Below, piece by piece: positions 1,089 to 50,221 of a stretch of DNA of 64,000 bases (its first letter is position 1; every line of letters starts with the position of its first letter). The notes beneath the pieces are model-generated. The model saw only the letters and a program-made list of their open reading frames with translations, was not told the DNA's origin and made no database searches. This stretch comes from Cadophora sp. MPI-SDFR-AT-0126 (taxonomy: Eukaryota; Ascomycota; Leotiomycetes; Helotiales; Ploettnerulaceae), in contig JAGMVK010000002.1 in NCBI GenBank assembly GCA_020747065.1, forward strand, positions 3,038,001 through 3,102,000. Direction: 5' to 3'. A program made the position numbers and the translations under genes.

Positions 1089-2677
1089 ATAATCCGAGAA
1101 GCTCGTTGTCACGTGCTCGAGATATGCTCCTGCTGTGGATAGAGCAAGTAGTAGGCCGTCTAGTTCCTTGACGAGTGCTATAGCATCAGGATCTACCTTA
1201 TCAGTATTATCTTTACTCTTACTATGAAATCATACCGATATACCCTTTTCAATATCCCTACGTCCTGACATGTTAGACAATATCTCCAGACCTTCCTTAA
1301 CATCTGGCAATTTCTGAACATAGATTCGTGTACCTTGCCTGACTTATGACGACCGCGTCGTAATAATGATTAAGCCGTGATCAGACCGAGGGAGGAATTG
1401 ACGTATATCGACCGCCGAGTCATCGGAATTGCCAGGTGTCTGAGGATTATCGAAGTTATCGTAGATCATTAGCCACCTTGTGTTCCGCGCGAAGTCCAGC
1501 CAGCCCTTGACCACACTGACAACTTAGTCGAGGTCTTTATCATAGTCTACGCTTGATAGCATACTAGTTGAAGGGTGATACCTTAGCACCTGCTGAGTAA
1601 CGTCCCGAAAACTCAGCTTAAGAGAGTTCTCGTTATTCGCGTTCAACCAGAAGATCGCGGTATACTTCTCCTTGTGCCGTCTGGCATATGTGATTGCCAG
1701 CTGAGTCTTTCCCATACCCCTAAGACCATGTAAGACGACACAGGATCGACTACTGTGATCCTGAAGCAGATCGTGCATCTTCGATAGCTCCTGCTCTCTA
1801 GCAACAAACTGTGTAGCTCCAGGAAATGACGCGAGGTTGAGCCCGACGGCAAACTGTTCGAAATCGATCCCTGTGCTGGTCAGCGTCGTTGCTTCGGTAA
1901 ACAACACATCTATGTAAACAACTTACCCTTGTACAGCCTGTGAATCTCATCCTCTAACCGCCTGAATGCCTGGTCCCTTCTCTCACCGTAATTTGGCACC
2001 ATAGACACATCGAAGATCCCGATTAAGCAGTACGCTTCATCTTCTTCAATAGTAGTATTCCGGTGCTCTGCCCAGGATCTCCGCTCTTTGATAGTAAAAT
2101 TTGATAATATATCACCTCGGAGAGCTTTGTTTGCGATGCCGGTAATGTCGTATATCTGAGACTCAAGCGACAACTTATTCCCTAGTCGCCTACCCTCCGA
2201 GCTAAAGAAGTCAACTAGCCTTAGTGTAATAAGCTCCTGAAGCGTCCAACCTCGAGTGAACCAACGGCTATTCCTAAAGGCTTCCTCCCATGCCCTCTGG
2301 TTATCTACCCCGTTGTCAGGCTTGGAGATATCCGAAAGGTAGACGTAGCAGCGCGCAGCGTTCTGATACCACCGGAACATAGAGTTGATCGCCGCGCCAA
2401 GCTCGACCAAATTCTTTTTATCGATGCAGCAAGTGTTGACCCAGAAGTATTCCAGTCTATCGTCTGCAGCCTGATTTGCGCAAAACTGTATTTTCCTCTA
2501 CCTAGCTTTGTTCACAGTCTTGCTCTTGTCTTTGCCCTTCTTCAAGTCTTGATAGATGACCTCCTCTTTTCCCTAGGTATGAGAGAGTATTGCGTAGGCA
2601 GGGACTTCGCCGCTAGTAGGTTCACGAAAGGCGATCTCGCCGTTTGGTTTGTGTTGCAAGAGGCGTATAAAAGACAT
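1089..2677 (-). pseudogene. HET-NB-ARC NLR (heterokaryon-incompatibility type) pseudogene, 3' end lost to the Copia insertion
   Basis: The start codon is at 2677 (MSFIRLLQ, then YAILSH). The HET domain follows with ANQAADDRLEYFWVNTCC, AINSMFRWYQ and RWFTRGWTLQEL. A 56-bp intron (1871-1926, GTAAGT...CAG) leads into NB-ARC: P-loop GLRGMGKTQLA, Walker B-like WLMIYDNFDNP, then GLIIITTRS and KELDGLLLALSTAGAYLE. TAG codons at 2573-2575 and 2498-2500 and a TAA at 1524-1526 break the frame; the first falls where HET proteins have SHRW, so TGG to TAG. A further break lies near 1340. The frame ends at SFSDY against the LTR, so the C-terminal part is lost or lies beyond the element. HET-NLRs trigger cell death in non-self recognition. 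This copy is non-functional. Confidence 0.85.
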
Positions 2678-3533
2678 GCTGGAGGTTTGCGACCGATCTC
2701 GTAGCAGGCGCGACTCGTATTACTCGTTCGGCATATTGCGCAAGCATTGCGATTCAAGGTCGACAGGATGTGAAGCAGTCGTTGAAGGACTGATAGTGAG
2801 ACGGATGTGCAGTCGTTGTTGTCTGCGACCGCCACGAGGCTGTATCGTGGCGTAGCCTGCCTAGCCACTTGCATATCGAAAGCAGACAGAACGCGAAGGA
2901 CGCTTCATTGTATAGGAAAACTTACATGCTAACTTACAAACTGGATTCTAGGACAATTTTTTCACTGGTATTAGGGTTAGATACCGGCTTCTACAAAGTC
3001 GAAGAGGAGTAAGATACTGCAGGTAGAGATCAAGGGGGCGGGACGGTTTTAAAAGCATTCACGGTCGCTGAAAGAGGGACGGGACTGCTTTGCACGGCTA
3101 CTATTTTGCTCTGCTCGGAGGATATCGGGAAGCGGGATTTTCCGGCAGATCCACCACGCGCAGCCACAGATTTTATTATAATTTTACCGAAATTACTATA
3201 ACTACACCGCCGCTGACCACGATCCTGGATCGCTTGATTGGAGGAGGTATCGGCCCATGTGGCGACAGCGTATGACATAGCGTGCTCTGGCCGCCACAAC
3301 ACTGAGAATAACTTTTTAGCATCATGATAAAACTCGGAAATCCATATCTAATCGTTCTATGAGTTTAAAAAGCGAAAAGAGCTTGATGGTGGCGTCGCGG
3401 GTCGAGCGGTCCTATCACACGTTAATAACAGGCTCTCTATATTATTATTGGGCAGCGACGACGCGATTATAATATTCGGAATTAATAGGCTAGGAGTGTT
3501 CGGGAGAAGGGATGTAATACAACTGAAATAAAA
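2678..3533. other. Upstream flank of the dead NLR; no other gene seen
   Basis: Open frames here are short and overlap on both strands without a recognisable motif. The interval separates the NLR start codon from the TIR end at 3638 and probably holds the old promoter and leader. Confidence 0.4.
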
Positions 3534-3638
3534 ATAAATAGAAATTTTAATGCATTCACAAATTTTTAGGCGCTTGAACTCGAAGTACCTACGTTTTGTC
3601 TCGTTACAGGGTGCGTCTCGGCACGCAGGGATAGACGT
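3534..3638. repeat. Solitary TIR end, same family as the NLR-bearing element at 45411
   Basis: Read on the minus strand from 3638 it begins ACGTCTATCCCTGCGTGCCG and is followed by TA at 3639-3640. It aligns with the left TIR at 45411 (ACGTGCATCCCTGCGTGCCG), including an inner block GGTACTTCGA(C/G)TTCA(A/G)GC, with weaker similarity to about 105 bp. No partner end is visible in 1-3530, so the partner is either lost or lies before the window, beyond the Copia insertion. Confidence 0.65.
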
Positions 3639-3669
3639 TAATTCTTTCAATACGATCGGCCCCATTTTT

Positions 3670-24261: not shown

Positions 24262-26421
24262 ATCCCGCCCCGGCTATAAATCCCGCCCCAACAACATTTT
24301 GCACCTGACTTCTAAAAATCGTAACTTCACCAAAAATAAAGATATAATTACAAGTGTTGAAGCAAAGTTGTATTAAATCTTACTTGATCGATTGAATTAG
24401 ATCAATTCTACAGAATATATCGTGCAGGTATTTTAATCTTCCGTCCACCTCGACTTTTACGTGACAACCCCGCATCCTCCCCCTTTGTAATTGAAGTACG
24501 GCAACGATTCCCCAGTGGTAGTTTGACGATCAAGGAGGGTTTTGAAGCAGGTTGCTTAGTTGTGGGCTTAGCGCAAGCCGGTTTCTTTGTCTTAATTGCA
24601 TCAGATTTGACTGGTAAAGAGTGTGATTTTGGTGTCTTGGGCGGAATTGGGTTCGCTGCCGCCAGATCCTTGACTAATTGCTTCGCAGCTTGCCTCTGTT
24701 CCTTTGCAATTTGTTCCTCTCTCTTCTTGAGGGCATTCGCAGCTCGCTGTACCTTGCGTTGTTCTTTAGCTTCGTCCTCGAGCTGTTGGAGCCTCTCTTT
24801 TTTGGCTTGAAACTCCACGGCTTTAGCAACTGTATCTGCCGCCCAACACATAGCTCCAGTATCGTCTTCTCCACATAAATTGAGTCTCTTGCCTTTCTTA
24901 CGCTTTTTTTGCTCTAGAAGGAGTGCTTCACGAAGGCCGTGGTTCTCGTGGACAACAATAGACTTCTCTGCGGCAAGAACCAGAAGTGCTTTGGAGGCTC
25001 GATCCGCACGCTCTTTTGAAGGAGACCGCTGGAACCGGATTGTGAATTGTCGTATTGCCTTAGTCGTAAGAGGTGTCCTTTCAGTCGTAGGACGTGTTTT
25101 TGGCAGGGAAATAGGCTTCCGGATCTTTGCCAAGATGATCTCTTTGTCAATGGGCCAAATGCCGGGTTTTGCAAACGCGTGAGTAATATTGTCCTCCGTA
25201 AAAGCAGCCTCCCAGGCACTCTTAAAGAACCTGTAAAAGAAGCGTTTGGACATTTGGACGTAGCCTAATCCTTTCGACATGAGTTGATTGACCTCCTGGG
25301 AGTAGTAAGTTGCCAGGGGTTGGAATAAGCCGACGTCCAAAGGCTGAAGCCGGTGAGTTGTATGAGGGGGAAGAATCAAAAGGATGATCCTATGGGTTTC
25401 AGCCCAACGGATAAACGCCATATTAACATGGCTAGAATGCCCATCAAGTAGCAAAAGACGATGTTCTCGTGGCGACGAAGGTTTAGTGTGTTTCTCAAAG
25501 ACTTCTTGTAGCCACTTCATTCCCATGGCTATAGAACTCCACCCATTTTCGGAAATAGAGAAATAACACTTGTCTCCAGGCTTCACATCTTGCATCCACG
25601 TGTCTTGTAACTCTTTAGAATCACCCCTATATATAAGAAGTGGAGGAATCCATTTGCCAATTGCAGAGACGCAGGCAAGGCAACTGACAAACTCTCGATT
25701 TCCGTCTTGCTTTGCCTTTGTAACTCGACCCGATTGTATGCCCCTAGGCTCATAACTCTCTTTACAGAAGAGCAAAAACCCATTATAAATCCCTTCTCGT
25801 CGAAATTCCAGATATTTTCGGGTTTGATTGAGTACTTAGAGACGACGTTCAATAACTGTAATTCAAACGTATACAATTAGCTAGAAACTTAATTAAAAGA
25901 CAAGAACAAAAGCGCAGGGTAATATACCAGCTGGAAAAAGAGTACAAACATCGGAATATACTCGGCAGAGAATCGTAGGTTGTCGATATTCCGAAGGTAG
26001 GCACTCTTTAATTGCGCCTTATGGCGACGGACGAAAGTACCAGTCCAATTCTTGCCTACACTACTCCCTCGAATCTCTTCAGCTAAGCTCTTGACCATAC
26101 AGCTCGTTGGAGGTAGACCACGATCAGTTAGATAGTTGATTCGATCGATTAAAACCTTTTCTTGAGCGTGGGTAAGAGCTTGCTTCCAAAAAGCGGTAGC
26201 ATCCTGACGAGAGCGTGTCAAGCCACGAATCCTTTTAGAAATCGACGTTCGGTCGCATTTGAACTTAGCAGCCGCGGCAGAATAATCTGCAACTTCTCCT
26301 CTTTCAATTGCAGCAATTGCCGCAGAAATCGCTGCCGATTTGTCCGCTCTAGCCATGATTTGGTGGAGTATATGGGGGGGTGGATCACGAATTTAGACGG
26401 GATTCTTAGCAGGGGCGGGAT
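24262..26421 (-). mobile_element. pogo/Fot1-type transposon nested in the piggyBac element (2160 bp)
   Basis: TIRs ATCCCGCCCCGGCTATAAA (left) and ATCCCGCCCCTGCTAAGAA (right, inverted) are each followed by a second ATCCCG(C/T)C copy about 18 bases in. TA flanks both ends (24260-24261, 26422-26423). It contains one transposase gene on the minus strand. Size, TA target and gene content fit the pogo/Fot1 branch. Confidence 0.9.
24408..26356 (-). pseudogene. pogo/Fot1 transposase, one intron and one single-base frameshift
   Basis: N-terminus: psq-type helix-turn-helix (GEVADYSAAAAKFKCDRTSI) followed by a CENP-B-like DNA-binding domain (RGLPPTSCMVKSLAEEI, then NWTGTFVRRH). A 72-bp phase-0 intron (25856-25927) precedes the DDE catalytic part: NIWNFDEKGFIMGF, LLLLDGHSSHVN and PPHTTHRLQPLDVGLFQPLA. 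The C-terminus is a long Lys/Ala-rich coiled coil. Frames switch at a five-T run near 25780, between FIMGF and CKESYEPRG, consistent with loss of one base. There is no other lesion in about 640 residues, so inactivation looks recent or could be a sequencing homopolymer error. Confidence 0.85.
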
Positions 26422-41821: not shown

Positions 41822-42693
41822 GGATAATATTGACAAAAGTGTTTCTGAAGTGTTCAAACTAAGAGGCACAACACTCACCGAAGTAGCCGTATTTATACTC
41901 GAGCAAAAACTGCATATCTAACCTACATATTTGGAAACCAGTCAGCTCGCGTGGGCAAGGTTCATTATGCGGACTCTTGCCTTTAATCCCTCGGCACCTC
42001 TTTGCGTTACGGGCGTCGCACTCGCACGTGGCTGAGATCTGGAGCGCATAAAATTAATCCATCTCACAACCACAAATAAGGTTAAGATCATCAAAACAAA
42101 ATATTTACAGTACTGTAAGATGGTTATGGATAACTTCTGCTTCGTACACCGTATTGACCATCGGCCTCCGCACCGGCAACCGTACACGGTCATCGATGTA
42201 TGCATACGGTGCCCGTAACTGTATATAAAACCAGCTAGAATTTCCACAGCTTTAGACCAATCAATCAATCATTAATCGCTGTCATCTGGGTTAGACTGCG
42301 ATTACTGTACCAATGTACAGCTTCTTACTTACGCACTTCTAAACTTTTCCAGAAGTCATCTTGGTAAGACGCTTGCTTAATCAGGAAGATTACGACACAT
42401 CTATCTGTGACTTTTCAAGGATCGACGATCATCCTTCAATCATTCAGCAGCAACTGTACATTACATAATTGTCGTGTCCATACAGGGATAACCGACGATG
42501 GAAAGGTACGAGGCACTGAGACTTTGACTGATCATAGTTATTCAAAAATACAGCTCGGTATCCACAGACTATAGTATCTAACATTCTAATTTAACCTTTG
42601 ATGACAAATTACTTTCCGCAATAATCAACAGCTTCTTTTACCGCGTTTCCACTACTGTATAATATTACGCATGGTAAATCGTTGATAAGTCTA
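41822..42693. other. Intergenic, no supportable gene
   Basis: A 108-codon minus-strand frame (41942-42268) with one hydrophobic segment has no motif and probably arose by chance. Confidence 0.35.
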
Positions 42694-43051
42694 ACGTCCG
42701 TCCCTGAGTGGCGGAAAACCCGGTGTGCCGGAAACGACCAATGAGATCGCAAGGATCGCGGATTTTTCTCTATGTCCTCTTTAAATCAGCCACAACAAAA
42801 ACTTTTTATATTTAAAGTTAGCAATAAGTTTATCACACGAGTTCTATTTATACAGCGACTTGTGAATGTTGAAATTCGTCTAATTTTCCGGCACATAGGG
42901 TTTTAGTTGGTTTGTGGCAGCATGCTTAGATTGAACGGAGCTAGGCTACCTCGACAGGTATTATATACCTGTGGGCACGTGACTGTGTGACTGATGACTA
43001 AGAGACCTGGATTGCCTGAACAACAGGTTTCCGCCACGCAGGGACGGACGT
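42694..43051. mobile_element. MITE, 358 bp, CGTCC-family TIRs
   Basis: The left end ACGTCCGTCCCTGAGTGGCG is matched inverted at the right end (ACGTCCGTCCCTGCGTGGCG). TA flanks both sides (42692-42693, 43052-43053). Two tandem 17-bp units (CCCTGAGTGGCGGAAAA, then CCCGGTGTGCCGGAAAC) lie just inside the left end. The inner block GACCAATGAGATCGCAAGGA is shared with the MITE at 48307, placing both in one family. It is non-coding. Confidence 0.85.
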
Positions 43052-43191
43052 TACTAGTGATGAAAACTGAAACTATATTTACTATCTAGTAGCCAAGAGA
43101 TTACTCTGTTGAGGGCCTTAGTGGCTATTAACTTCGTCATATTCACTTCTATTTGATAATCCTGGCTCTTGGTTTGGAAACGATTAGCTGC

Positions 43192-45035: not shown

Positions 45036-45410
45036 TACGTTAGCCGAAGAGAGCGTCCTTAAGAGCTCTCTTCCACCTGCAACCTCTTAATTCTACACCT
45101 ATTTGCAACAACATCAGAACAAGAGTATACTCTTAATAGGCCATACCCCTGTGAAACCAACACCTATTGATACTCAATCGCCACACAACCAAAGCTGGAG
45201 AACTTTCCGAGACAAAACCTTGAGAACCGGATGCTTTTCCTTCAGGGATTTAAGGAGACAGATAAAGAGCAGCAGCCGAATTCCCATTTTAACCTACGCT
45301 TGGTTCCGCTTCATTCGTTGGGAGGAACTTCGTACCGGGCTCCTACATTGAAAAATTTGACGGACATGATTTGCACCGCCTTATTGAGAAATTGTGGAAA
45401 AGTCGAACTA

Positions 45411-45490
45411 ACGTGCATCCCTGCGTGCCGGAAAACCCTCCGTACCGGAAAAACTAACAGGTACTTCGACTTCAGGCATCATAAAACCTA
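45411..45490 (+). repeat. Left TIR of the NLR-bearing segment
   Basis: About 80 bp. Contains two tandem 17-bp units, CCCTGCGTGCCGGAAAA and CCCTCCGTACCGGAAAA, directly inside the terminal ACGTGCAT. Confidence 0.8.
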
Positions 45491-48306
45491 CGTAAAGTAT
45501 AAAAATTCTCTATAATGTTTTGAAAGTTAAATTATATGGCCATTCTAAAACACCTTCAACCTCTTTTACTAGAAAACCATATTCATGTCGTCGCCGCTAC
45601 GGCTGATTTACAAAGGGTCTCATTTAATAGCGAAACGTACTTTTTCTCATCACCGCTTTATCTTTAGGCTCTCAGTGATTTTAATACCTATAAATGATCT
45701 CATTCGAGCTCTTAAGCCCCCTAACCATATAGGAAGTCGTTGTTAGCCTTACTGCTGCTGTGGCGTGTAAATCTCTACATGATCGCCACGCGATTCGGTA
45801 CCTCAGATCGAAGCGAATGACGATCTTGGTGGGGAGCAGCCCCGCCCACCCCGCGTAATCTCCTGCCTGAGATTCATGGCTGCATAATCGAACTCCAAGG
45901 ATCGGAAGGTAAATTAAGGATCCTAGATTCTGTTTTTATCATCCACCTCTATTCCTTCAGCTTCCATTGCAGCGACAGAGACAAATCATGCTCAACCGAA
46001 ATTGACTTCGAATATGATATGCCTATGGCTTCCAGAATTCCAGCTTACTGTAAGCGACTGGCCGGTCTTGCGCGCTTCCAGTGATGTACGACAATGTCGT
46101 TGACGTGAGGCTGCCTCAGCTGGAGCCTGCCAGCCTCAACAAGACGCTTTCTCCAACCTCACTCCGCATCTATATTGATTCGATAGCTTAACAACTACCC
46201 GAAACCCTACCCCACTGCGACCCTCGAACCTTTCGAATAATGCGTCTGCTACAGTCTGACGACGACGGCAATTTCAGCCTGACCGAATTCTTTGACGACG
46301 ACATACCCAAGTATGCTATACTTTCACACAGATGGGAAGCGGGGGAGGTCACTTTTGCAGATCTGATGAATGGCACTGGCAAGGACAAGACTGGCTACGG
46401 TAAGATAGAGTTCTGCGGAAAACACGCCAGGAGTGACGGCCTGGAATACTTCTGGGTGGACACATGTTGCATCGACAAAGCGAGCAGCGCCGAGCTCTCT
46501 GAAGCTATCAACTCGATGTTTCGCTGGTACCAGAAAGCGACTAGATGCTACGTCTACTTATCTGATGTTTCGGTACGAAAGCGGAAGGCAAGTGATACGT
46601 TTGCCGAGTGTTCTTGGGAATCTGCGTTCCGAGCAAGCAAATGGTTTACACGAGGCTGGACTTTACAAGAACTCCTTGCTCCAAGATCAGTTGAATTCTA
46701 TTCCCGGGAAGGCAAGAATCTAGGTAATAAGAGAACCCTCGAGCAACAAATCCACGAGATTACAGGAGTCCCTGCCATAGCGCTTCGAGAAAACTCCCTC
46801 TCCCAATTCGACGTCGATGAATGATTCTCGTGGGCAAAAAGCCGACAAACTACACGCGGAGAAGACAAGGCATATTCGCTCTTTGGGATCTTCGATGTCC
46901 AGATGCCACTTCTTTATGGCGAAGGAGTAGTCAAGGCGTTTCTGCGGCTCCGGGAGGCAATTGACAGACCTTTGAAGAGTAAGTCCTATCCTAACGACTG
47001 ATGCCGAACGCACCTCCTGGCAAGTCGCAAAGGTCCAAGCCGACCCCGCGCTAATGACGTCCCGACCCGCAGAACGACCAGAGACTCCACCGAACCCGTC
47101 GATCGTCATACCCTTTAGTCGCGACGCAGACTTCGTCGAGCGAGGGATACTTGATCAGATTCACCAGAAATGCGCTGTCTCAGGATCTCGGACCGCGCTC
47201 GTTGGCTTGGGCGGCGTCGGGTAAGCGCAAACGCCTTTATTAATATACATTGCTGACTGTTTTAAAGCAAATCGCAACTCGCAATCGAATACGCCTATCG
47301 AACTCGAGACCGCTCGCCGGAGACATGGGTGTTTTGGGTCCACGCAAGTAACGCTGCCCGGTTTGAGCAGAGCTTTCGAGATGTTGCAGACCGTGTCAAG
47401 ATCCCAGGGCGGCAGAACCCAACGGCTAATATTTTCCAGCTAGTGTACGACTGGCTGTGTGACGAAAGGAAAGGGAAGTGGGCTCTACTACTTGATAATG
47501 TGGACGATGCTGGCTTCCTCGTCGAGGCTCGAAGGACTGGGCAAGATGGGCAAACAAACGGCATAGAGAGCGGGAACCCACGGTCGCTCGTGTCCTACCT
47601 TCCGCAGTGTCCGCATGGATCGATTGTCATAACGACGCGGAGTGAAGATGAGGCTCTGGAATTAGTCGAGCCGCGCGACATTATCACAATCGAACCGATG
47701 AGATATGAAGATGCGCTGAAGCTTTTCGAGACCAAGCTGGGAGGGGATGACGACAGCAGTGATAAAGCCGATGCTACTGCTGAGCTTCTAGTAGCTCTTG
47801 AGTTCATGCCGCTTGCTATCGTCCAGGCAGCTGCATACATCTTACGGAGGAAACCACGATATTCCGTACGAGAGTATCTTCAGAGCTTTCGGGAGAGCGA
47901 TCTTAAGAGAACGAGTCTTCTGGACTACAATGGCAAGCAGCTCCGTCGAGACAAGGAGGCGAAGAATTCGATCATCGTCACATGGCAGATATCGTTTGAT
48001 CACATCCGCAAGGTTAGATCATCGGCGGCTGATTTACTGTCGCTCATGAGCTTTTTCGACCGGCAAGGAATCTCGGATACCCTACTCCAAAATCGAAGTG
48101 AGCAGATGATATCGAGGCCAGACCATAGGGAGAGCGCGGATGGTAACTGTGTTGGTAGTGATACTACTGACAGTGATGACGACGACAAAGATTTCGTATC
48201 ACAGTCTTCTATGGGCGATAAGTTCGAAGAGGATGTCTCAGTCTTGCGAAATTACTCGTTCATCTCCGTTAACGCCAGTGGCACTACACTCGAAATGCAC
48301 GGACTA

Positions 48307-48552
48307 ACGTCCCTCCCTGCGTAGCGAGACACCCTGCGTGGCGAGACAGACCAATTAAATTGGACGAATTACGAAATCGACAGATCGCTATATTAAGAGG
48401 AATAATGTGACGAATATTTTACTAACTCTAGATATAAGTAATTTTTATTGTTGTTGGTTTAAAAGAGAAATTACGAAGAAAACTTCAGAATCCTTGCGAT
48501 TTCATTGGTCTGTCTCGGCACACAGGGTGTCTCGCTTAGCAGGGAGGGACGT
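48307..48552. mobile_element. MITE, 246 bp, inserted in the NLR coding region
   Basis: The left end ACGTCCCTCCCTGCGTAGCG and the inverted right end ACGTCCCTCCCTGCTAAGCG extend as TIRs of about 49 bp to GACCAAT. TA is duplicated at 48305-48306 and 48553-48554. Removing the element and one TA restores the reading frame exactly. Internal tandem 17-bp units CCCTGCGTAGCGAGACA and CCCTGCGTGGCGAGACA are seen. Same family as 42694-43051 (shared GACCAATGAAATCGCAAGGA). Confidence 0.92.
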
Positions 48553-48935
48553 TAGTGCAGTTAGCAACGCGAAAATGGCTTGAAGCTCACGGACAGACAG
48601 AGAGGTGGAAACAGCAATTTATCAGGAATCTTTGCGTAGTGCTTCCAACGGGAGAGTACGAGAACTGGGAGAAGTGTCAGGCACTTTTCCCACACGCACA
48701 ATCGGCAGCAGCACAGAGGCCGAAAGAACCAGATTCTCTACCGGAATGGGCTTCAGTACTATATAAGGCAGCATGGTACGCGTGGAGAATGGGAAAAGGC
48801 GTAGAGACAGAGAGCATGGCGGTTCAGGCGATGAAGGCCAGAAAAAAGATTTTCGGTCAAGAGCACAACGACACGTTAAGCAGTATGGCAATGGTAGGCT
48901 TGGCTTATAAGCTTCGAGGGAAATGGGCCGATGCC

Positions 48936-49313
48936 GAAGAGCTAGAGGTGCAAGTGATGGAGACTCGCAAGACGAAACTCGGCGCCGACCATCCTTCCAC
49001 GCTGACGAGCATGGCCAACCTCGCGGCGACATACTGGAATCAAGGCCGGTGGAGTACTGCCGAAGAGCTGTTTGTGCAAGTGATGGAGACTCGCAAGACG
49101 AAACTCGGCGCCGACCATCCTTCCACGCTAACGAGCATGGCCAACCTCGCGTCGACATACCGGAATCAAGGCCGGTGGAGTGATGCCGAAGAGCTGGATG
49201 TGCAAGTGATGGAGACAAGCAAGACGAAACTCGGCGCCGACCATCCAGACACGCTGAGTAGTATGAATAACTTGGCGTTCACGTGGAAGGAAAATGGCAA
49301 AGAAACAGAAGCC
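48936..49313 (+). repeat. Three tandem 126-bp TPR-coding repeats
   Basis: Units start GAAGAGCT at 48936, 49062 and 49188, exactly 126 bases apart, and differ at few positions. Each encodes a 42-residue TPR (motifs KTKLGADHPSTLTSMANLA and YWNQGRWSTAEEL). A more diverged unit follows and one precedes. Such high identity suggests recent repeat turnover in the recognition region. Confidence 0.9.
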
Positions 49314-49421
49314 GTGAGACTTATGGAAGAGTGTGTACGAGTACAGAAACGTGTCTTGGGACTTGATCATCCAGATTCTATATCATCTTGTAAAACTCTA
49401 GATGCATGGAAGGCTGAGTAA

Positions 49422-50076
49422 GTGGATATTGTATTGCCAATGCAAAGAAAGTACTGAGATAGGTGAATTTCATACATTTTCAAGCGTAATATGACAACTT
49501 GACATAAATATGTACAATGGAATTAATCGTTTATAATTTAAAAGTACTCAGCATGGATGTATGCCTCCATCGCAGGTAAATGTCACATGTCCTTATGAGG
49601 CAGGGCTTGGGGAAATGCAAGCCCGGATCCGGGGACTTTGCCCACGCAATGGCTAAGCTGGATGTGGCGTTAGCCTCTCCAGTCCCTTGTAGCTTTTATG
49701 CCTAAGGCGTGACACAAGAACTCCGTAGTGTGTTCCCCACCAAGATCGTCCCTCGCTTCCATCCGAGGTACTGATCCGCGTGGCGACCTTGCATGAATTT
49801 GGACGCCACAGCCGCCTTAACGCTGTTAACGATCTCCCGCATAGGGGAAAGCTTAAAGAACTCGCCTGAGACCCTTCAATGAGTTTAATGATAGTGTAAG
49901 CTTAGTGGTGCAGCTATAGTAAAGAAAGTCTGTTACGTTACCAAAGGAGACTCTTTACAAATCAGGTGTAGGGCGACGACGTGAACATGATTTTTTCAAT
50001 CGGAGACGTTTGAGGTGTGCGGGAGTGGTTACAGAAAACAAATTCCAAAAAATTGGACGAGATATTCCGGTGCGCA
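49422..50076. other. Downstream flank of the NLR inside the TIR segment
   Basis: No open frame with a motif. Likely the 3' untranslated region plus spacer, GC-richer around 49590-49830 and AT-richer near the right TIR. Confidence 0.4.
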
Positions 50077-50156
50077 TAGATTTTATGATGCTTGAAGTCA
50101 ATGTACCTGTTTGATTTTCCGGCACGTAAGGTTTTCCGTTACGCAGGGATGGACGT
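50077..50156 (-). repeat. Right TIR of the NLR-bearing segment
   Basis: Inverted match of the left TIR. The two 17-bp units here read CCCTGCGTAACGGAAAA and CCTTACGTGCCGGAAAA on the minus strand. Confidence 0.8.
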
Positions 50157-50221
50157 TATTCGATTTCACTTCGCAGATTTACAACACAGGCTAATAGGTA
50201 CTAGAGGTTACCGATATACGG

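Follow-up and report, generated by a model that had tools for sequence, protein, structure and literature searches.

Ends, flanks and gene content of the segment

The 64,000-nucleotide stretch of the genome of the root fungus Cadophora sp. MPI-SDFR-AT-0126 analysed here (the window; C12:3038001-3102000; the assembly has 38 contigs and 53.96 Mb) contains, at 45409..50158 on the plus strand, a segment bounded by terminal inverted repeats (TIRs) that encloses a gene of the nucleotide-binding oligomerization domain-like receptor (NLR) type. We designated this segment E1, and all comparisons were made within this one genome. E1 is 4750 bp long including the TA at both ends, and was delimited by its ends, its TA flanks and its homology to a relative, E2, which is found on this contig at a distance of about 213 kb and matches it end to end. 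The outer arms (45409-45490 and 50077-50158) are 82 nt long and complementary at 85%. In a gapped alignment the arm homology reaches about 430 bp per side (310/445 identities, 15 gaps), which gives a left arm of 430 bp at 45409..45838 (plus strand), best conserved in its outer 82 bp, and a right arm of 428 bp at 49731..50158 (minus strand). A preliminary description of this DNA had reported inverted ends of about 80 bp, TA on both flanks and no transposase inside; all three were borne out, and since the homology carries on to about 430 bp, only the best-kept part of the ends had been seen. The 150-bp flanks of E1 matched nothing elsewhere among the loci read. None of the 128 DDE_1 matches from a whole-genome scan lies between 45409 and 50158; therefore, E1 can only be a non-autonomous derivative, and an autonomous E1 was rejected. 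The near-palindromic join described for the site after removal of the segment found no support as a feature of the family. In 17 elements (E8 left out), the left flank and the reverse-complemented right flank agreed at a mean of 2.47 of 8 positions, compared with 2.27 for re-paired flanks; 29% of 5000 shuffles reached the observed mean. The comparison was ungapped and hence blind to a symmetry shifted by a single base, such as that in E1. A palindromic target was rejected because the flank match was not above that of re-paired flanks.

The gene in E1 is on the plus strand. Its HET exon is at 46240..46978, with the Pfam HET match in 46240-46821 (4.2e-14) and with boundaries placed by comparison with P0002, the gene of E2, and by splice signals. 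Intron 1 (46979..47072), placed from GT..AG and P0002, forms the boundary between HET and the nucleotide-binding and oligomerization domain (NOD). The NOD starts in exon 2 (47073..47220; homology to P0002 and splice signals), and exon 3 (47268..49421) holds the rest of this NB-ARC-type NOD and the TPR sensor (48561-49418; 2.2e-61). DUF7779 was the sole match of the E1 NOD piece at 47266-48321 (1.4e-5, below the curated cut-off); the NOD of the intact relative E2 also matches NB-ARC (4.1e-6). The gene is interrupted twice, by an in-frame stop at 46822-46824 and, within exon 3, by a nested 250-bp miniature inverted-repeat transposable element (MITE) at 48305..48554 (plus strand), designated MITE1, which lies at a TA and has the same kind of termini as E1. 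The single HET-NB-ARC-TPR gene of the preliminary description is thus present, but broken. In the E2 product P0002, HET, NB-ARC and TPR occur together, as expected of a fungal NLR, and the E1 gene is its broken counterpart. Judged from its sequence, E1 represents a TIR family in a non-autonomous and by now inactivated form, and the incompatibility role of E1/E2-type cargo is putative.

A family of TIR elements, its cargo and its transposase

A 31-nt terminus, searched with up to 3 mismatches, occurred 56 times in 54 Mb, while the reversed-pattern control gave 0. Arm searches returned at least 50 matches for the left arm of E1, at least 42 for its right arm and at least 47 for the arm of another subfamily, and family members were taken from 20 + 5 + 4 + 4 stretches read. 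Seventeen inward-facing terminus pairs were found, and 15 remained after two that overlapped others were dropped. An NLR or HET gene, in several architectures, is enclosed in 11/15 (E1, E2, E3, E4, E6, E8, E9, E12, E13, E14 and E16); the remaining pairs comprise E7 and E10, a MITE of 578 bp and a pair spanning 10.1 kb (C12:3129846-3139964, L040, about half read). The preliminary description had proposed to look for the terminus across the genome and for other TIR pairs around NLRs, and both were found. E15 and two incomplete copies with HET-NACHT-WD40 genes (L042 and L043) were picked for a NACHT near a terminus and stand outside this count; because E15 was chosen in this way, the less biased figure is that of the terminus-only pairs, 11/15. 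Among the 16 complete long elements read, 13 hold an NLR or HET gene.

The type-1 HET-NB-ARC-TPR gene of E1 recurs in E2 (C12:3296110-3300489), and a type 2, at 24-30% to type 1, is found in E3 (C33:3034451-3039753) and E14 (C36:2756092-2760608). E4 (C33:132288-135677) and E16 (C12:3357819-3361440) carry HET-WD40 genes with no NOD, the WD40 being assigned from Pfam and the HET from protein and translated alignment. A HET gene that does not match the E1-type HET subfamily is present in E6 (C15:570006-575019) and E13 (C12:3277737-3281059). The NACHT carriers are E8 (C12:3207745-3213532; HET-NACHT-WD40), E12 (C12:3302140-3307164; HET-NACHT), E15 (C34:2943290-2947258; PigL_N-NACHT-ANK) and E9 (C12:3332936-3339430), in which a NACHT-WD40 gene and a separate PigL_N/SesA gene are arranged head to head. 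E11 (C12:3465331-3482988) contains E10 (C12:3465431-3472196; kinase, DUF7587 and a weak F-box) nested within it, and carries a DDE_1 gene and two type-1 NB-ARC-TPR genes without the HET exon of the E1-type subfamily. A type-1 NB-ARC-TPR gene, likewise without this exon, is found in a further copy, X (C12:3213532-3220546). Nothing was recognised in the frames scanned of E5 (C15:34233-36444) and E7 (C36:682109-686042): neither Pfam nor NCBIfam gave a family for the short E5 frame, for the longer of two E7 frames (382 aa, the other being of 152 aa) or for a 606-aa frame in L034. The NLR frame of E9 (L018:7137-8738, minus) and its PigL_N/SesA frame (L019:3716-4675, plus) are about 480 bp apart, and are perhaps a receptor/effector pair within one TIR unit.

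A DDE_1 transposase is present inside E11, a complete relative with the same ends and with an NLR on either side of the transposase. Both ends of E11 are in place, and their outer 102 bp are 94% alike. E11 and X share a 7-kb tract (86.75%) that contains DDE_1 and HTH_Tnp_Tc5, an NLR and the right end; in X the left part is missing and E8 adjoins. The transposase was counted as a part of E11 because this tract recurs at two places, and the possibility that it belongs to a separate nested transposon was rejected, as no arm or MITE match was found around it. A separate element at L035:1473-4881 encodes a DDE_1 transposase 64% identical to that of X. It has TA flanks and 46-bp TIRs that are 97.8% alike, and its start, TAACGTCTGTCCCTGTGTGCCGAGA, resembles the family start; no HTH match was obtained at E 0.1 in the two open reading frames (ORFs) scanned. 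The first half of the transposase had no match among solved structures. We infer from these copies that a family transposase would move the NLR carriers.

An intron-like stretch of about 135 nt was noticed in the transposase gene at L016:2509-2643 (minus) and L035:2880-3010. The two copies are 94% alike, in genes whose exons have a synonymous divergence (dS) of about 1.4-1.5; they form predicted hairpins and have a weaker match near E13. The stretch is a candidate introner-like element. Within the window, a further DDE_1 match at 25173-25694 (minus, in a 475-aa open frame) is distantly related to the family transposase.

The association of genes and termini was compared with a local-shift control, in which the termini were moved by 20-300 kb on their own contig in 5000 runs. 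For this control and for the distance counts, 105 of 111 NPHP3_N rows (six second pieces of one gene dropped) and the best 38 of 124 HET-relative rows were used. One of these 38, on C37, was placed by its far end in place of its start; C37 has no terminus, and the counts are unaffected. Seven NACHT matches lie within 3 kb inside a terminus, and the shifted termini gave a mean of 0.95 and reached this number in 1 of 5000 runs. An exon of the HET subfamily has a facing terminus within 1100 bp in 13/38 cases, against a shifted mean of 0.22 and a maximum of 4 in 5000. The NACHT matches inside and outside termini were 7 vs 0 at 3 kb and 8 vs 2 at 5 kb; the NB-ARC scan gave 19 matches, too few for this comparison. 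When matches to the arm of another subfamily were included, at least 18 of the 38 HET relatives have an end, and at least 21 have an end or a remnant, with the addition of two relatives with arm remnants (L044) and of a gene in the window with a terminus at 3618-3640.

This window gene, at 1344-3640 on the minus strand, belongs to the same HET subfamily as the gene of E1 and is, like it, a broken HET-NB-ARC gene, with its HET at 1937-2665 and stops inside. The terminus-like site at 3618-3640 faces it, 975 bp upstream, and the far end was not found; the gene is probably another copy of the family. Outside E1, a separate small element at 42692..43053 (plus) has the same kind of termini (terminus-like at 42692, plus, and at 43031-43053, minus). 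Elsewhere on the contig, two HET relatives at C12:3391844 and C12:3402835, on opposite strands and with identical scores and stops and a matching NB-ARC pair, suggest a large inverted duplication.

Empty sites and mosaic receptors

The joined flanks of 18 elements were compared with the loci read. Filled and empty sites are here sibling sequences within one genome and not observed events. For three of the 18 (E10, E16 and MITE1), the join matched siblings across the junction: that of E10 matched the right arm of E11 (91.7% over 252 bp), that of E16 matched other arms (best, 83.6% over 201 bp), and that of MITE1 matched five NLR paralogues (72-83%). The best siblings have one TA at the junction, and each of the three elements has TA at both ends, as expected from duplication of the TA; some more distant arms for E10 and E16 have another dinucleotide there. 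For E1, TA at both ends is the only such sign. Since E16 carries a HET-WD40 gene, an empty sibling site is thus known for at least one carrier of an immune-type gene. A TA-inserting TIR element with an incompatibility-type gene as cargo, as the preliminary description proposed, is supported by the recurrent end pairs together with these sibling empty sites. That description named the right kind of element and understated it, having missed the damage to the gene of E1, the transposase of relatives and the mosaic look of the copies.

Nesting of family elements was observed at several loci (L020, L021-L023, L016, L017 and L041), with E10 in E11, E16 in an arm, and one-sided evidence for E8, E2 and E15. 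Insertion of E2 in a MITE, and of E15 in another element, was rejected, because only the right flanks match and the left flanks were not found. Elements lying inside one another would favour recombination between copies.

Comparison of the copies gave a patchwork of shared and unrelated parts. Homology between E2 and E8 begins at the left end, stops at 1647/1629 (78%) and resumes only in the right arm (80%); between E2 and X it is confined to the part from 1673 onward. E8 and E9 have 812 bp of NACHT in common at 89%, with looser similarity beyond, and E12 and E14 have in common the HET (76%) and both ends (78% and 73%), but not the middle. In the annotated E2 gene P0002, intron 1 is at about 1641-1732, between HET and NOD. 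In 50-bp windows, E1 and E8 are 86-96% alike up to the intron and 40-64% thereafter, and E2 and X are 52-64% alike before the intron and 76-92% after it. By blastn on E1, the homology to E8 stops at 47005 and that to X starts at 47010, and the module junction of E1 is therefore at about this position, in intron 1. In a tree of ten HET exons, E1 grouped with E8 (98/94), and E2 came next (100/99). The approximately unbiased (AU) test rejected E8+L043 (p 6e-5), E8+L042+L043 (p 1e-4) and E1+E2 (p 0.026, a modest value), and did not reject E3+E14 (p 0.46), the groups having been picked after the identities were known. Thus, among these ten exons, the nearest relative of the E1 HET exon belongs to a gene whose sensor half is unrelated. 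As read from these alignments, the cargo genes are mosaics at the DNA level, in which related HET exons are joined to unrelated NOD-sensor modules with breakpoints in the HET-NOD intron. The plain reading is exchange within this intron, and the process behind the exchange is one that we infer.

The ratio of nonsynonymous to synonymous divergence (dN/dS) was 0.10-0.26 over 12 cargo comparisons, E1 not being among the pairs, and 0.17-0.25 over 4 transposase comparisons; these values are rough, because they are pairwise counts with dS up to 1.5. Strong change of the kind caused by repeat-induced point mutation (RIP) was seen at L024:2001-7724 (487 C>T/G>A vs 63 opposite changes, GC 28%, TpA/ApT 1.56). 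RIP as a general cause of divergence was rejected, since among the three copies compared it was strong in L024 only, and not in E1 or X.

Interpretation, alternatives and related systems

We consider it highly probable that E1 belongs to a Fot1/pogo-type (DDE_1) TIR family with long ends of about 430 bp, which inserts at TA and carries and reshuffles NLR genes. The transposase, in cis as in E11 or in trans, would move the NLR-bearing elements by cut-and-paste. Recombination between copies, or template switching during gap repair, might then take place within an arm, within the HET exon or within the HET-NOD intron, and such exchange could produce new receptor architectures as well as deletions, for example a HET-WD40 gene that lacks the NOD. 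The class of cargo may be kept by selection acting on the receptors, to the benefit of either the host or the element. To a broader proposal, that of a 'receptor transposon', we give an even chance: one family would repeatedly capture incompatibility-type genes, keep them under constraint and act as a scaffold for recombination. Copies would nest in one another, and exchange in the HET-NOD intron would join new effector-sensor pairs and carry them to other locations. The element itself could also profit from the NLR, for example if the NLR penalised loss of the element or kept competitors out.

It is very unlikely that independent MITEs merely flank NLR genes by chance, with NLR-rich regions gathering repeats and the two ends never having moved jointly. 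Small elements with the same terminus do exist, also in the window, HET genes near repeats have been reported in another fungus (PMC6034849), and 24/56 termini and several NACHT genes lie in C12 3.08-3.49 Mb. Against such clustering stand the local-shift control and the excess of NACHT inside over outside termini at both distances, as well as the unbroken homology of E2 and E8 over 1-1647, which starts at the terminal TA, crosses the arm and the 5' region and enters the HET exon. Dispersed copies on C4 (L047) and C34 (L043) likewise share 857 bp of unbroken homology, and sibling sites lack E10 and E16 in their entirety. It is also unlikely that NLR genes were copied by ordinary chromosomal duplication that took the ends along, with domains shuffled as in any fungal NLR and the transposon incidental. 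This reading is favoured by the 17/38 HET relatives that showed no terminus or arm (L046 read, 16 judged from the matches listed); on the other side, E1 and E2, and E3 and E14, match as elements while their 150-bp flanks do not, and E2 and E8 share the left 1-1647 and the right arm around unrelated middles.

Several other observations weigh, as do these 17 genes, against a TIR family that carries and reshuffles NLRs. E5, E7 and E10, 3/16 complete long elements, have no recognised NLR or HET gene in the ORFs scanned. In the broad HET list (150 of 447 candidates scored), 2 lie inside and 2 outside termini at 3 kb. For E2, E8 and E15 the join finds a match on a single side, the joins of E5, E9 and E13 give short one-sided matches, and 9/18 joins, E1 among them, match only themselves among the loci read; thus, the empty site with a single TA that the preliminary description had proposed to look for exists for E10, E16 and MITE1, but was not found for E1 at these loci. 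The TIRs of the L035 element are similar, not equal, to the long arms, and therefore movement of NLR elements by its transposase is presumed. The modest AU value for E1+E2 and the choice of groups after the fact belong here as well.

The class name follows from the DDE_1 transposase and the TA target, which we take to indicate a Fot1/pogo-type element of the Tc1/mariner group. The family resembles this type in its TA flanks and TIRs, in relatives with DDE_1 and HTH_Tnp_Tc5 and in MITE derivatives with similar termini. It differs in the arms of about 430 bp of the NLR carriers, in the full-length cargo with low dN/dS and, for E1, in the lack of a transposase. Pack-type elements (Pack-MULEs and their kin) are likewise non-autonomous TIR elements that carry host genes, but the present family has whole receptor genes of a recurrent functional class rather than chance fragments. 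Starships are giant, many-gene elements, and, like this family, they are mobile elements of fungi (Pezizomycotina) that carry NLR genes. E1, with 4750 bp and one gene, is not of this size, and the family consists of TIR elements of 2-18 kb at TA, with DDE_1 instead of a tyrosine recombinase and often with an NLR or HET gene as the only recognised cargo. The Starship captain domain DUF3435 was absent from the Pfam matches of the E1 pieces and of the other cargo ORFs scanned; one DUF3435 at L026:2-2203 lies outside the element ends mapped in L026. Starships reach about 700 kb (PMC12134995), and NLRs are listed among their cargo (PMC9815663, which cites another paper for this), including one in a Gaeumannomyces Starship (PMC12134995).

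In Podospora, members of the HNWD/NWD family (het-d, het-e and het-r) are HET-NACHT-WD40 genes and exchange repeats with one another (PMC1805685, PMC4986451), and one NWD pseudogene is preceded by a relic of a transposable element (PMC1805685). Unlike the present family, no TIR unit is described for them in the available parts of PMC1805685 or PMC12222747. Combinatorial NLR domains are known in fungi (PMC4986451), and gene clusters are regarded as a source of diversity (PMC12258605). The preliminary description proposed that such cargo may be a route of change in NLR repertoires, one not known to it as described. NLR cargo is known in Starships; for a DDE TIR family with NLR cargo, full-text literature searches gave no description in the titles and abstract starts of the papers listed, which is no proof of absence. 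The mosaic copies suggest one way in which fungi could assemble new immune receptors. A small, TA-inserting carrier of receptors with intron-joined modules would be a concrete vehicle for this, and whether its sites are filled or empty can be scored across populations and in crosses.

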